The notes beneath the pieces are model-generated. The model had not been told where the DNA came from. It saw only the letters and a program-made list of their open reading frames with translations, and made no database searches. A DNA stretch of 24,057 nucleotides from a virus. The stretch is from positions 1 through 24,057 of IMG/VR virus record IMGVR_UViG_3300008110_000404, one strand, 5' to 3'. The position numbers and the translations under genes are program-made. Shown one piece after another: positions 10,394-24,057 of this stretch (its first letter is position 1; each line of letters begins with the position of its first letter).

Positions 10394-10542
10394 TCGGCTC
10401 CTGTGCAAACATGTTCTTCAGCGTGGTACTGCTCGGCTGTTAACTGCTCATCCCAGTCTGTTCCTTCTTCATTCAAGATTTGCCACTGCTTGCCGCAGAG
10501 GTTGCAGGAGATGTGGGCGATGGATTCGTTTATTTCAGACAT
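10390..10542 (-). CDS. Tiny Cys/His-rich acidic protein (50 aa), possible zinc site
   Basis: I read this 50-codon frame directly from the sequence. It starts MSEINESIAHISCNLCGKQW and ends HAEEHVCTGAE. Cysteines 13 and 16 (CNLC) with His40, His44 and Cys46 could bind one zinc ion as CxxC plus HxxxH, although the gap between the halves is longer than in classical C2H2 fingers. The ATG shares a base with the TAA of the 817-residue gene (TAATG) and its TGA overlaps the next start, so it fits exactly between its neighbours. The acidic composition contrasts with the basic small genes that follow. Function unknown; a small structural or regulatory zinc protein is possible. Confidence 0.8.
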   Translation of the reverse strand: MSEINESIAHISCNLCGKQWQILNEEGTDWDEQLTAEQYHAEEHVCTGAE

Positions 10543-18753: not shown

Positions 18754-21251
18754 TTGGTTGGTTTAGGTTGGTTTTTTGATGCGTGCTGCAATGCTGCAGT
18801 TCGCGCTTGTAAATCCAGCTGGGCTTTACTCTTTGCAATGTCAGTGCCCAGCTGTACGCCTGCACGCTCTTGCTCAAACTGTTGTTTGGTCTTGCTCTCG
18901 TTGATCTGTGCACCGACCTTGAGAGAGTCCAGCTCCAAGTTGCCTTTGACTTTCTCTTCTTCTAGCGCCTGCTTGTCGGAAGCAATAGCGGCGTCGATCA
19001 TCAGCTTTTGTTTCTTGAGCTCCAGCTCGCCTTGTTTGATCTGCAACTCCTGCATCTGAAGCTGCAAGACCGGGTCTTGTGCTTGTTGCTGTGCCTGCTG
19101 CTGGGCAGCTTGCGCTTGGTTCTGCATCAACACCTGATTGGCCGCTTGAGCCATCATGCCTGAGAGCGCGATCTCCACCTGCGGTGGCAACTTCTCGTCT
19201 TCGGGTGGCAGTGGCATGCCCAACTGCTGCTCAATTTGCTGACGCATCTTGTAGCCAACGTGTTCTGCAATGTGCGCAGTAAGTGCGCCCATGATCTTGG
19301 GAGCCTGTGGGTTCTGGCCAATGAACTGCTGAATCATCGGGTCTTGCAACATCATCATGTGCACTTGGATGTGTGACTGATGGTCTTGGTGCAAGAACGC
19401 CTTGAGCGGTGTGCCCTTGAGCGCATTTTGATTCTCTTGCACAGGGTCAATCGGTTTCTGATCGTCCTCAATTGGTACAAGCTTGTCAGCGTTCTTAACA
19501 CCCAGCACGTCCAGCATCCCGCGATGCAACTCTGGCAAGTTGTAAATGTCCGGAGCCATCTGCGCCATCTGAATCACGGCTTGGTACTGCACCACACGCT
19601 GGCTCATCGTCGCCGCATTGGGGTCAGACACAGGGATCACATCTACCAAGTCATAGTCCGCTTGCTTAGCTTTGCGGTTGCCGTACTCTGGATCGTATGT
19701 GTAATCTGGATCCGTGTAGTCACGGATCAGGTTCTTCAAGAGTTTTAACTCTTGCTTCAATGCAAAGTGCACACGGGCCTGCACAGCAGACATGACTTTA
19801 AGCTGGCGCTCAAGCAAAGCTAGCGTTGTACCCACGGGCGCGTTCGCGCTCATGTCGGCTACTTTCATGTCTGAAGTAGACGCAAAACGGCGGCCCTCTT
19901 CAACAATGTTGTTGAGCAAGTTGTACAGCGTAGCACTAGGCTCTTTGTATGGCAGCGGCAGGATATTGTCCCGAATGTTGCCAGAGCCAATGTCTACATC
20001 TCGCCACTCGCCGGGGGCAATCGGTGTGTCATCACCTTTAATCCGAAGGCCACGGGACTTGAGTCCACCCGGTAAGTTCGACAGTGTGCCCGCATCCACC
20101 AACTGGCGCATGAGAGATGTCGCAGATTTGGCAAAGCCACCAATGAGGTGGAAGAGGCCAAAGCCGTAGGCTCCGAAGCCGGGGATGTACTGGTAGTGGA
20201 CGAAGTGCTGGCGCTTAAGTTTGAGGTCATCGTCTTCTTTCCAATTTCTACGAATAGACAAGATGTCGTTCGTACCTTTAATGATTGTCACAACGTACGG
20301 CAACATGATGCCGGTCTTCTCGCCGTCTTCGTCCTCGTCTTCATAGCCTTCAAGGTCTAAGTCAACGTGGCACTCAAGCAAGATGTAGCGCTCATCGTTT
20401 AAGTCACTAAAGCCTGTCTCTTTATCCTTGGCTTTCTGAATGTCTGTCTGCTCGCGTGTTGGGTCAGACAGCTCTGTGTCTAGGTAAAAGCCCGACTGCT
20501 GCAGCTTGATAATCTCATTCTTGGTCTTACGCATCACATGCGTGACGCGGTGGCATGTATCTAAGTCTGTCGCGCCGTATGGGAGGATGATGTCCTCGGC
20601 AGGAATAAACATAGAGACTTGACGGCCAAGGTTGGGGTCAAAATACACCTTCTTAAACGCTGAACCCGTAGCTGGCAGTGACCACAACATGCGCTCGTGC
20701 TCAGCACGAAACTCAACCATGTTCTCTGTCAACTCAAAGTTCATGTCTTCTTCAACGTTGGCCGCTTTCTCCCGTGTCTCTGGGGAGTCTTTACCTACAA
20801 TTTTGGTACGCACGGGGCCACGAGCCGGGAACGTCTCGGTGATTGTCTCGGCTTGGAAGCGAACAACCGCTTCTGTAATCATGGGGTGGAACACGCCGCA
20901 CGCGCCGTTCCAAGGTTCTGTGCGCTCCTCCATCTGAAGGCCGAGCAGTTTCAAACCCTCAATGTAAGACTTCTCCCACTCTTTGCGCGACGCTTTATCG
21001 TTATCAATGTCTCCGGCCAAATCGCCAGCAAGGGATTGCAAAACGCCAGCAGAAACGTATTCGGCAAGGTTGTCGTTAAAACCTTCTTCGTCCTTGTCTT
21101 CATCGGGGATCAAACTGATCTCCATACCATCCATGCCGATGGTGACTTCTTCGGGATCAACGATCTCGATCTCAATGGGGGACTCTTGCTCTGCAAGTGC
21201 GTCGATGCCAACGGGTTGTTGGTACAGCGCTTTGTCGATGTTCGTTGCCAT
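18750..21251 (-). CDS. Portal protein (head-tail connector), P22-like size
   Basis: The 833-residue protein begins MATNIDKALYQQPVGIDALA. An acidic N-terminal part (20-60) is followed by WEKSYIEGLKLLGLQMEERT (about 92-111), then GACGVFHPMITEAVVRFQAE and TITETFPARGP (about 116-146), a signature block of large portal proteins. The stretch SAFKKVYFDPNLGRQVSMFI and PAEDIILPYGATDLDTCHRV fits the clip/stem region, and VAD-MSANAPVGTTLALLER about two-thirds through is also typical. Residues roughly 700-830 are a Gln/Ala-rich helical tail (for example QAQAAQQQAQQQAQDP) likely to form the long barrel coiled coil of P22-type portals. It lies directly after the large terminase with an AAGGA Shine-Dalgarno. 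The portal forms the dodecameric DNA gate bound by terminase. Confidence 0.88.
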   Translation of the reverse strand: MATNIDKALYQQPVGIDALAEQESPIEIEIVDPEEVTIGMDGMEISLIPDEDKDEEGFNDNLAEYVSAGVLQSLAGDLAGDIDNDKASRKEWEKSYIEGLKLLGLQMEERTEPWNGACGVFHPMITEAVVRFQAETITETFPARGPVRTKIVGKDSPETREKAANVEEDMNFELTENMVEFRAEHERMLWSLPATGSAFKKVYFDPNLGRQVSMFIPAEDIILPYGATDLDTCHRVTHVMRKTKNEIIKLQQSGFYLDTELSDPTREQTDIQKAKDKETGFSDLNDERYILLECHVDLDLEGYEDEDEDGEKTGIMLPYVVTIIKGTNDILSIRRNWKEDDDLKLKRQHFVHYQYIPGFGAYGFGLFHLIGGFAKSATSLMRQLVDAGTLSNLPGGLKSRGLRIKGDDTPIAPGEWRDVDIGSGNIRDNILPLPYKEPSATLYNLLNNIVEEGRRFASTSDMKVADMSANAPVGTTLALLERQLKVMSAVQARVHFALKQELKLLKNLIRDYTDPDYTYDPEYGNRKAKQADYDLVDVIPVSDPNAATMSQRVVQYQAVIQMAQMAPDIYNLPELHRGMLDVLGVKNADKLVPIEDDQKPIDPVQENQNALKGTPLKAFLHQDHQSHIQVHMMMLQDPMIQQFIGQNPQAPKIMGALTAHIAEHVGYKMRQQIEQQLGMPLPPEDEKLPPQVEIALSGMMAQAANQVLMQNQAQAAQQQAQQQAQDPVLQLQMQELQIKQGELELKKQKLMIDAAIASDKQALEEEKVKGNLELDSLKVGAQINESKTKQQFEQERAGVQLGTDIAKSKAQLDLQARTAALQHASKNQPKPTK

Positions 21252-21259
21252 GTTGTTCC

Positions 21260-22801
21260 TTAATAGTATGCCGCTTTGCGCCCGTAGCCATACAGCCGGT
21301 CTTCTTTCTCGTCTGAGTCGAGAGCAATAAACCCACCTTGTCTGTATCGCAACAGCGCCTGTGTTGTCGTATCCACGTAGTCGTCGTGTTCCCCAACAGG
21401 AAACGCCGCCATCTCTTCAATTACTTCCCGTGCCCAGCGTGTGTCAGGTGCCCAGACTTTACCACTGCTGAATAAATCTGCAACTGCGTTCACACGCACC
21501 ATCTTGTCGTTGCCCCGTGACGGGCTGAACTCCTGCACCGGTATGCCAGTGGCCCGAAGTTCTTGTATTAGTGGTGCGCCAGCTGCCTTTTTCTCCACAA
21601 TGAACGCGTCTGGCTCCCACTCTTTCCAATGTTTGAGCGCCACGGCCTTAAGTTCTGGAAAAGCCATCCGGTCTTTAAACGCGTCGAGCAATATCAGCTG
21701 CGGTGAGTCATTCTCTTCCTCGTTATAGAACACGCCCCATGTGGTGCATGCTGAATAGTCAGAGTTGTTCTTGGTTTCAAACGCCGTATCCCAAGACTGA
21801 ATGATGTAGTCACACTTTGGGGGGTCATCCTTCTCCCAACTACGCCACATCCTGCGTGAGATGACGGCTGAGTTCTCAGATGTGGGCTGCTGCATGTACT
21901 GCGCGTTCCAATACCGTGGGTCAAGCGACGCTTTTGTTGATTTCAAGGACGCCAGCGGCCACTGCTCTGGCCAAAGTGACTTCTCGTCCTCGCTGTCTTC
22001 GTTCAGTATCGCAGGCAGCTCCACAATCTCCCACGGCACAGCCTCTGGGTTCTTGGCTTGGTAGTCAAGCAGCCGCCCAGTCAAGTCCAACAGCGACCAC
22101 CTAGTCATAATGACTATGATCGCCCCGCCCGGCATCAAACGTTGGAGCGGCCCTGTCTGGAACCACGACCATGCGGTATCAAAAGCCAGTCTGCTATTTG
22201 TTTTAACGTCCTGCTCGGAATGAGGATCATCAATAACGAACAAATCAGCACCACGACCAGCAAGAGCGCCCCCGACACCAGCAGCATAGTACTGACCGCC
22301 AGCGCTTGTAGACCACTTACCAGCGGCTTTTTGGTCGTCTGCCACCAATGTTTGAGGAAAAACATCGCGATACTCCTCTGAGTCAATCAAATTTCGTACC
22401 CGCCGACCAAAGTCCTCAGACAAACCCGCCGTGTGCGTGCCCATGATAATCTTCTTGTTGGGGTATTTGCCCAGAAAGTACGCAGGGAACAGGTAAGAGC
22501 TGAACTCCGACTTGCCCATACGCGGCGCGATGTTGATAATCACCCGCTTTTTCTTGCCTTCAACCACATCTGTGAAGATTTTTGCCAGCTTCCTATGGTG
22601 CGGCCCAATCTTAAAGCCCGGATACACCGCAGTAGCAAAGCCCAGCATGTTTGTTTTAGCAGCTTGCAGACTGGCGCGGCGTTCTCGCACTTCTATATCG
22701 TCAAGAAGCTCAATCTTGTCATGCAAGCTCATGTGCGGAAGCGCTTTCTGTATGGCTTCCAGCTCAACTTTGCTTATAGACGTAAACTGTTCAAGATTCA
22801 T
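21260..22801 (-). CDS. terL: Terminase large subunit (packaging ATPase and nuclease)
   Basis: From ATG 22801 the protein has 513 residues. The ATPase half shows a Walker A PRMGKSE (about 93-99), a Walker B LFVIDDP (about 187-193), and a coupling motif MTRW (about 232-235). The nuclease half shows SWDTAF (Asp at about 338), FIVEKKAAGAPLI (Glu at about 403) and HDDYVD (Asp at about 473-474), the three acidic positions of the RNase H-like metal site. This pairing is specific to TerL, the motor that packages DNA through the portal and cuts the concatemer. ATG 22801 has a GAGAG sequence at good spacing and overlaps the previous stop by 11 bases; an ATG at 22822 without a clear Shine-Dalgarno would add seven residues. 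The next gene is the portal, eight bases on, as expected. Confidence 0.95.
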   Translation of the reverse strand: MNLEQFTSISKVELEAIQKALPHMSLHDKIELLDDIEVRERRASLQAAKTNMLGFATAVYPGFKIGPHHRKLAKIFTDVVEGKKKRVIINIAPRMGKSEFSSYLFPAYFLGKYPNKKIIMGTHTAGLSEDFGRRVRNLIDSEEYRDVFPQTLVADDQKAAGKWSTSAGGQYYAAGVGGALAGRGADLFVIDDPHSEQDVKTNSRLAFDTAWSWFQTGPLQRLMPGGAIIVIMTRWSLLDLTGRLLDYQAKNPEAVPWEIVELPAILNEDSEDEKSLWPEQWPLASLKSTKASLDPRYWNAQYMQQPTSENSAVISRRMWRSWEKDDPPKCDYIIQSWDTAFETKNNSDYSACTTWGVFYNEEENDSPQLILLDAFKDRMAFPELKAVALKHWKEWEPDAFIVEKKAAGAPLIQELRATGIPVQEFSPSRGNDKMVRVNAVADLFSSGKVWAPDTRWAREVIEEMAAFPVGEHDDYVDTTTQALLRYRQGGFIALDSDEKEDRLYGYGRKAAYY

Positions 22802-23402
22802 CTGTGCTCTCTGACCCATCATTCTGCACAGGTGGGATATCTTCTGGGCGCTCGGAAACGTCCACCACGTCTATCACTCCCATGAACTTAGCCAACTTAT
22901 CCTTGATGCGCTGCTCAACTTCAGCGTCGCTCATCTCAATCTTTTTGACCTCAATTTGCTCAGTAAACAGCCCGACTTCCGTGACTTTGCCTAGCGCGAT
23001 CAAAGCTTTTAGTCGGATGTTGGCGTTGGGCGACTTAGTCTCCTCAACCAGTTTGGCCACTGTGTAGCCCCGGATCTCCTGCGCCATATCAATGAACTGC
23101 CAGTCATACGCAGCCAGCATACCCGTCAAGTGGCGTACAGCAGGGGGAGTCTTAAGTTCTGCAAGGGAAGCTTTTTGCTCCGCAGTATCTGAGTTGGTAG
23201 TCAGCGTGTTGAAAGCTTTTCGCGCAGCTTGTGTCTGTTGTTGGTTTGCAACAGACTCGTCATCGTCCACACCCAGCTCTGCTAACCACTGCTCTGTAGT
23301 AACTTGCGCAGACAGGACATCCTCGGGCGACGCGTCGTCCAGTTTTTCAAAGCCTTCCCGAGAGGTGACCTCAGGTTCAAAATGCACCAAGTGATCTAAC
23401 AT
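22791..23402 (-). CDS. Putative terminase small subunit
   Basis: The 203-residue protein starts MLDHLVHFEPEVTSREGFEK. Residues 1-90 are acidic and helical with few hydrophobics. The segment AVRHLTGMLAAYDWQFIDMA (about 88-107), followed by YTVAKLVEETKSPNANIRLK and ALIALGKVTEVGLFTEQIEV, is a helical core that could be a DNA-binding or oligomerisation domain. The C-terminus is Asp/Glu/Ser-rich. No helix-turn-helix is obvious. The call rests on position: it is the first gene of the operon and overlaps terL, where small terminases usually lie, and on size. The segment KSPNANIRLKALIALGKVTEV is a pattern I have seen in proteins at that position. The start is supported by an in-frame TGA upstream. 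The Shine-Dalgarno is weak. Confidence 0.7.
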   Translation of the reverse strand: MLDHLVHFEPEVTSREGFEKLDDASPEDVLSAQVTTEQWLAELGVDDDESVANQQQTQAARKAFNTLTTNSDTAEQKASLAELKTPPAVRHLTGMLAAYDWQFIDMAQEIRGYTVAKLVEETKSPNANIRLKALIALGKVTEVGLFTEQIEVKKIEMSDAEVEQRIKDKLAKFMGVIDVVDVSERPEDIPPVQNDGSESTDES

Positions 23403-23473
23403 GCGTAGGAATCCGTTTCAGTTGCTTCCTCGTTGGCGCTAGTGTACACTTCTTCTTGGCAACAATGCAAGCG

Positions 23474-23479
23474 ATTGTA
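23474..23479 (-). promoter_or_regulatory. Possible leftward -10 element (TACAAT)
   Basis: On the minus strand TACAAT matches five of six consensus positions, but the -35 region is poor at every usual spacing. If used, transcription would start near 23467 and read into the putative small terminase gene. Treat as weak. Confidence 0.3.
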
Positions 23480-23515
23480 TTTTTGCTTCTCCTCGATGGT
23501 TCAGTTGCCATCTTT

Positions 23516-23553
23516 ACCCCCGGAACGTCTGCAGATGCCCGGGGGTTTTTTTT
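23516..23553 (+). terminator. Intrinsic terminator on the plus strand with no obvious gene before it
   Basis: ACCCCCGG (23516-23523) pairs with CCGGGGGT (23539-23546), a strong 8-bp stem, and T8 follows (23546-23553, the first T pairing with A23516). The loop contains the palindrome TCTGCAGA. On the minus strand there is no T tract, so it acts rightward. No plus-strand coding gene is seen upstream of it in this window. Confidence 0.8.
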
Positions 23554-23581
23554 GCCTCGAGTTTTTTCAAATTTTTATAAA

Positions 23582-23610
23582 ATTTTATGGGGGTACTGTG
23601 TTTTTGTACA
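23582..23610 (-). promoter_or_regulatory. Candidate leftward promoter for the packaging/structural operon, overlapped by LexA box
   Basis: On the minus strand TGTACA (23605-23610, four of six -35 matches) and TAAAAT (23582-23587, five of six -10 matches) are separated by exactly 17 bases. Transcription would start near 23575 and run into the terminase genes with a leader of about 170 bases. The region around it is AT-rich. The LexA-type box covers its -35 and part of its spacer. Confidence 0.5.
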
Positions 23611-23613
23611 GTA
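23594..23613. promoter_or_regulatory. LexA-type (SOS) operator candidate
   Basis: The 20-base site TACTGT-N8-ACAGTA matches all twelve arm positions of the E. coli LexA consensus and 16 of 20 positions overall. Arms are perfectly symmetric; the central eight bases are T-rich (GTTTTTGT). It lies in the only long intergenic region. Confidence 0.65.
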
Positions 23614-23724
23614 TAGGTTATCCGGATTTTTTGAAATTTGAATTGTGGTTACGAAACAGTGTTCACACCATGACGCCACGGCACACCCCAATAGGGCTTG
23701 GTGGGGGTAGGGTGGGGTTCGAGT

Positions 23725-23740
23725 GTGGAGAACTCTCCAC
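23725..23740. promoter_or_regulatory. Palindromic operator candidate GTGGAGA-AC-TCTCCAC
   Basis: A perfect 7+2+7 inverted repeat. Its right edge is about 29 bases upstream of the extended -10 element of the rightward promoter, so it sits roughly at -60 to -44 relative to the predicted start. A dimeric activator or repressor site is the natural reading; no cognate regulator is visible in this window. Confidence 0.5.
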
Positions 23741-23768
23741 TCTGTCAAGGGGATACGGCAACGACTTG

Positions 23769-23777
23769 TGGTATACT
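23769..23777 (+). promoter_or_regulatory. Extended -10 rightward promoter (TGG-TATACT)
   Basis: TATACT at 23772-23777 matches five of six consensus positions and is preceded by TGn, the extended -10 element, which can compensate for the lack of a recognisable -35. The start would be near 23784, giving a leader of about 74 bases to the ATG at 23858. Confidence 0.6.
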
Positions 23778-23815
23778 AGATGTATCGATTGGGGGAACTC
23801 AGTCGGTTCGGTTTG

Positions 23816-23840
23816 CCTCGCCCGTCTGCGAGGTTTTTTT
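23816..23840 (+). terminator. Intrinsic terminator inside the leader of the rightward gene
   Basis: CCTCG (23816-23820) and CGAGG (23829-23833) pair around an eight-base loop and are followed by T7 (23834-23840) and then CTTTT. It lies between the extended -10 promoter and the Shine-Dalgarno of the next gene, so it could act as an attenuator or end a short RNA of about 57 bases. The stem is short, so strength is moderate. Confidence 0.65.
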
Positions 23841-23857
23841 CTTTTGGAGATTCAATC

Positions 23858-24057
23858 ATGAACATTCAGTTCGATCGTTACATCGTTGCCGTTGGTAAGG
23901 CATTGGAATCAAACGCCAAGGTTGGTGTTGCACTCAAAGCCTTCAAGCCCATCTACGACAAAGCTACGCCAGAGAAACAGTTCGAGTATCGCTTGGCTGT
24001 TGGCACACTCATTGGCAAGCACTATGAGTGCGAGACTCGCGAGAGTGTCTATCGTGG
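23858..24057 (+). CDS. Rightward phage gene, unknown function (partial, runs off right edge)
   Basis: I translated this frame directly; 66 codons and two bases are present. It starts MNIQFDRYIVAVGKALESNA and continues KVGVALKAFKPIYDKATPEK, then QFEYRLAVGTLIGKHYECET. A GGAG Shine-Dalgarno at 23846-23849 lies eight bases before the ATG. The frame is open to the window edge and the predicted protein is helical with balanced charge. No domain is recognised from this piece. It is the only gene in the window on the plus strand and is preceded by its own promoter and leader terminator, so it most likely begins the opposite (early or middle) transcription unit of the phage. Confidence 0.8.
   Translation, partial: MNIQFDRYIVAVGKALESNAKVGVALKAFKPIYDKATPEKQFEYRLAVGTLIGKHYECETRESVYR

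Follow-up and report, generated by a model that had tools for sequence, protein, structure and literature searches.

The LexA proteins of gamma- and betaproteobacteria bind CTGT-N8-ACAG, and a change of one half-site to CCAG occurs in several of the E. coli LexA boxes. LexA sites normally lie on or near the site of RNA polymerase (PMC3323433), and host LexA is established as a regulator of phage genes in GIL01 and CTXphi, in the latter of rstR (PMC4551915, PMC3323433). Further phage genes under host LexA have been reviewed together with virulent phages that respond to other host factors, such as Spo0A in phi29 and CtrA in Caulobacter-type phages, an arrangement termed "lytic deferment" (PMC9437464). 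Of more immediate relevance for the phage described here are the pelagiphages of the HTVC023P type, which share a GroES gene as a core gene (PMC9599517).

The window, by which we mean the whole stretch of DNA that was analysed, is a linear IMG/VR fragment of 24,057 bases. Its minus strand carries genes for the terminase large subunit, portal, a GroES-like co-chaperonin, capsid and tail, and a 455-bp gap (23403-23857) separates this block from a divergent one that begins with the first early gene. The LexA-type box lies inside this gap, as expected from a preliminary description that had placed it in non-coding DNA. The closest named phages are HTVC027P, HTVC023P and the metagenome-assembled DSL-LC04, whose terminases are 50-53% identical to that of the window. 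In related contigs of 65-66 kb an early block (DNA polymerase A, a SNF2 helicase and a DUF927 protein) occupies one strand and the virion block the other, and this control region is the sole place where the two meet head to head. Neither mark of a temperate phage with SOS induction was found, as eight long related contigs, which may be incomplete, contain no tyrosine integrase (Phage_integrase) and Pfam and PHROGs scans named no repressor family among 20 early proteins. The best reading is that of an integrase-less, lytic-looking podovirus related to the HTVC023P group. The clade that carries the box is one of uncultivated, integrase-less aquatic phages, with no isolate in the phage collection searched. 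Relatives within bacterial genomes were uninformative as to the host, since the four MAG contigs obtained each belong to a different group; in 369 genomes from the class of one such MAG, only three short gene-level matches were seen. Additionally, a gammaproteobacterial MAG with a related phage contig has TACTGATAATTTATTCAGTA at the start of lexA, a weak hint that may be a binning artefact. A LexA of the E. coli type in the host is presumed, which counts against the LexA reading.

The box, TACTGTGTTTTTGTACAGTA, is identical to the E. coli consensus at twelve of twelve arm bases, as first described, and it has the half-sites and the spacing of the SOS box of beta- and gammaproteobacteria. CTGT-N8-ACAG occurs exactly nowhere else in the window, and the next candidate for the longer TACTGT-N8-ACAGTA has two mismatches. 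At equal base frequencies, a stretch of 24,057 positions would contain the twelve arm bases by chance with a probability of 1 in 697, which reproduces the earlier figure of about 1 in 700. Scored with an approximate matrix made from 15 E. coli boxes, the box reaches 22.7 bits, within the 14.4-27.9 bits of the E. coli boxes; the next-best score in the window is 7.7 bits and the best among 30 Markov copies of the window is 16.9 bits. The window has no other strong LexA-like site, and the genomes of its clade have one such site each, aside from chance and coding matches. A second LexA-like site in an early HNH-like gene of one genome of this clade (G001, 20.1 bits) was rejected as a coding coincidence arising from codons for P-V-Y-K-H-S. 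Coordinates of the box and of the surrounding features are collected in Table 1.

Table 1. Features of the control region and flanking genes, in window coordinates.
Feature	Position	Strand	Remarks
Terminase large subunit	21260-22822	-	
First packaging-block gene	22791-23402	-	Small terminase by position only; no family match
Promoter TTGCTT-N17-TACACT	23422-23450	+	Would drive the predicted small RNA; spacing 17 in 49/49 distinct relatives
Possible leftward (packaging) promoter TTGCAT-N18-TACACT	23441-23470	-	Shares palindromic -10 AGTGTACACT; spacing 18 in 34/49
Predicted phage small RNA, ~95 nt	23457-23553	+	Three hairpins; UUCUCCU unpaired within the stretch that complements phage ribosome-binding sites
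Intrinsic terminator of small RNA	23515-23553	+	CCCCCGG...CCGGGGG, then T8
Conserved A/T element AAATTTTTATAAAATTTTAT	23569-23588		Part of palindrome; possible unwinding element
Initially proposed promoter TGTACA-17-TAAAAT	23582-23610	-	Not conserved
LexA-type dyad TACTGT-GTTTTTGT-ACAGTA	23594-23613		Core CTGT-N8-ACAG at 23596-23611
Anchor element TGAACACTGTTTCGTAACCACA	23644-23665	-	42-44 nt (from AACACTGTT) from box
Extended -10 TGGTATACT of rightward early promoter	23769-23777	+	
Terminator-like hairpin in early leader	23815-23842	+	Before first early gene
First early gene	23858-24057	+	Cut by window end; homologs in relatives

Conservation was assessed in 80 relatives of the terminase, 80 relatives of the first packaging gene and 91 contigs with the anchor element beside the box. 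Close relatives, defined by at least 82% identity in the first packaging gene and enough upstream sequence, comprise 49 loci in 36 distinct regions. The site is present in all of them, which answers the earlier suggestion that its conservation upstream of terminase genes be checked: the core CTGT-N8-ACAG is exact in 33 of the 36 regions and the other three have CCAG (A-to-C at position 15). The complete TA...TA flanks of the window occur in only three of the 36 sites, and more distant family members are without the box. By the approximate matrix, the 19 site variants score 15.2-24.0 bits, all within the range of the E. coli boxes, and they vary in the manner that LexA prefers. Their mean of 19.8 bits compares with 13.1 bits for equal numbers of random changes (0/2000), with 17.4 bits when the arms are held fixed (0/2000) and, in a weaker contrast, with 18.7 bits when only the substituted base is redrawn (18/2000). 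Variability per position is anticorrelated with LexA information content (rho -0.62, p 0.003). The control region as a whole is well conserved, with half of all columns invariant. Among 113 comparable windows, 13 have arms whose conservation equals or exceeds that of the box arms, so the case for LexA draws on the match and on which changes are tolerated; conservation by itself would not make it. This comparative evidence supports the box as a LexA-type site, conserved and under LexA-like constraint. A genome of ~65 kb is expected to contain one exact CTGT-N8-ACAG by chance, and one 20-bit coding match does exist, but a non-coding box kept in 36 distinct regions with LexA-like constraint is hard to reconcile with a palindrome devoid of function; we consider such an accident very improbable and largely excluded.

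The preliminary description had proposed that LexA covers a leftward promoter, TGTACA-17-TAAAAT, and thereby holds back the terminase and virion operon until SOS induction. This string does overlap the box in the window and does point toward the terminase genes; its role as the promoter of the operon did not hold up. Three promoter-like strings of such quality were found in that stretch where 1.2 are expected by chance, and only six of the 36 relatives have a string passing the same rule. In ten of the 36, insertions of up to ~55 nt separate the box from the -10, and the A/T element comes to lie 37-64 nt from the box. The promoter is lost in 30 of the 36 with the box retained, and no conserved promoter overlaps the box in close relatives. 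A promoter element with stronger conservation is found 120-200 bp nearer the packaging genes, with a rightward terminator and the predicted small RNA in between. Because the palindromic -10 is nearer to the packaging genes and TTGC is found at a spacing of 18 in 34 of 49 relatives, the packaging promoter is probably the one on the minus strand at 23441-23470, which is ~120 bp away from the box. Occlusion of TGTACA-17-TAAAAT by LexA is, in our judgement, quite improbable. We also considered whether a leader peptide follows AGGAGAAGCAAATG ahead of the packaging genes and rejected this for want of a conserved frame; the sequence is accounted for by the predicted small RNA, whose antisense strand it is.

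Spacing around the box differs between its two sides. The anchor element, on the early-gene side, stays 42-44 nt from the box in 36 of 36 close relatives, whereas the A/T element, on the packaging side, lies anywhere between 9 and 64 nt away. For this reason the box more probably acts on the early promoter or control region than by occluding a terminase promoter. The explanation that we tentatively favor makes the palindrome an operator for host LexA that sits in the central control region of this integrase-less podovirus and acts on the early side. Host LexA of the CTGT-N8-ACAG kind would bind the palindrome in undamaged cells and would be released from it upon SOS induction, and the box may tune the early promoter or control region through repression, a roadblock or joint binding with the anchor element. 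We infer LexA as the binder, as well as the direction and sign of control and the dependence on SOS. Further points count against LexA: the box recurs without a conserved promoter overlap in 36 relatives, neighboring elements unrelated to LexA are as conserved as the box, each genome has a single site apart from chance and coding matches, and the matrix is approximate.

The same region holds several other elements. The early promoter together with its hairpin (23769-23842, plus strand) may form an attenuator or a short leader RNA, with a sub-threshold OmrA-B-like match in Rfam. Additionally, a G-rich run, GGTGGGGGTAGGGTGGGGTT (23700-23719, plus strand), could form a G-quadruplex and is kept in close and distant relatives. 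The strictly conserved A/T element, the G-rich run and palindromes clustered between divergent blocks have an origin-like appearance, which raises the alternative of a replication origin or other DNA-structure element with the box as an initiator site. However, we found no iteron array and no initiator, and the substitutions in the box are LexA-like, so that we regard an origin as improbable.

Between the box and the packaging genes lies the predicted small RNA. All 49 distinct regions have TTGnnn on the plus strand at exactly 17 nt before AGTGTACACT. The three-hairpin fold is found in 45 of 45 distinct relatives examined, with UUCUCCU mostly unpaired between the first two hairpins, and folding is 4.4-4.9 standard deviations better than that of shuffles in the four sequences tested. 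Automatic alignment gave little covariation because the first hairpin varies in length; paired changes are seen in five variants framed by hand. No Rfam family reaches its gathering threshold, only sub-threshold matches being obtained. The segment CAUUUGCUUCUCCU exactly complements the ribosome-binding and start region AGGAGAAGCAAAUG over 10-16 nt at four early genes of G001 and five of G003, a second genome, and starts with complementary runs of at least 9 number 7 and 13 in these genomes, against shuffled-seed means of 1.1 and 1.8. Free RNA-RNA duplex energies are dominated by the terminator stem and hence uninformative. To judge from these complementarities, the predicted small RNA looks like one by which the phage silences several early or middle messages of its own.

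Genes that stand behind a second palindrome, TGTC-N8-GACA, are among those complementary to the small RNA. This palindrome recurs two to four times in many genomes of the family; its sites lie at an early-gene promoter and also directly before the gene that follows the helicase, where they touch the promoter TTGCAA-N16/17-TAnnCT. Examples of the operator, TGTCnAACnnTnGACA, stand at early-gene promoters in G001 (L252-L255) and G003, and three sites each occur in G014, G015 and G016. A literature search found no known factor for TGTC-N8-GACA. Its recurrence at early promoters nevertheless implies that the family has a regulator with this operator, and the palindromic TGTC operator is a predicted phage regulon across the whole family. 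The box occurs at 18 of 77 distinct loci bearing the anchor element, never together with a control-region TGTC-N8-GACA; in the other 59 this palindrome is present within one mismatch in 55 and exactly in 49, and the box is present in none. The window's clade retains two copies in the early block (G001 at 18854 and 30444; G003 at 10397 and 24819), and the copy in the control region is the only one that it has lost. As read from this distribution, the window's clade is one that has exchanged its control-region TGTC-N8-GACA operator for a LexA-like one.

Given a family regulator and an exchange of operators, a phage regulator must be taken seriously as the binder of the box as well, and it is quite possible, although we lean away from it, that the palindrome serves a different regulator, most likely phage-encoded, and only resembles a LexA box. 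The mutual exclusion of the two palindromes (TGTC in 0/18 box loci versus 55/59 others) and the presence of a family regulator with palindromic operators, including in the window's clade, are in its favor. So is the model of the first early protein (pLDDT 84), whose helix-helix-helix-strand-strand order is compatible with a winged helix; a fold search with this model gave no significant match. On the other hand, class A genomes have no further copy of the box in non-coding DNA, its tolerated changes track LexA preferences, and Pfam and PHROGs recognized no phage repressor gene. Binding of the TGTC regulator itself to the box is unlikely because the two sequences share no half-site. As a separate observation on the first early protein, full homologs (L203, L218 and L179) have strongly exchanged N-terminal halves and a common C-terminal motif, SAxEKRRFL.

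An independent LexA-like box, scoring up to 25.1 bits, occupies an intergenic stretch early in the early block of a separate sister clade (L236-L248), which favors repeated recruitment of LexA. In L237 (137-156), L238 (944-963), L240 (1009-1028) and the relatives L239-L244 this box scores 21.8-25.1 bits and lies within an extended inverted repeat. A broader proposal, that a repressor-less, strictly lytic clade replaced the operator of its own regulator with one for host LexA, such that the DNA-damage state of the host would gate waiting versus lysis, strikes us as rather unlikely in this full form. One palindromic operator swapped for another between sister clades constitutes a natural experiment in regulatory rewiring.

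Comparison with described systems places this locus between several of them. The window phage shares with the HTVC023P-type phages (PMC9599517) a terminase up to 53% identical and a GroES-like co-chaperonin gene, and its relatives have a size of ~60-65 kb and DNA polymerase A and helicase genes in common with that group; the window and its relatives differ in their G+C content of ~50%. The box resembles the LexA boxes of gamma- and betaproteobacteria in its half-sites, its 8-bp A/T-rich spacer and its tolerance of CCAG. It differs from them in being located in a phage control region, where it is overlapped by no conserved promoter, and in that LexA binding is predicted from sequence. GIL01 and CTXphi rstR likewise have a LexA-type site in phage regulatory DNA. 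However, those are temperate phages with LexA sites in antirepressor, co-repressor or lytic gene promoters, whereas neither an integrase nor a recognizable repressor was found for the window phage. The phages controlled by Spo0A and CtrA are similar in having sites for a host regulator in intergenic control DNA and in needing no repressor of their own; in the window phage, by contrast, the regulator would be LexA, with one site per genome. If LexA does bind, then abundant uncultivated lake phages would read the SOS state of their host without a lysogenic repressor, and "lytic deferment" would extend from CtrA and Spo0A to LexA.
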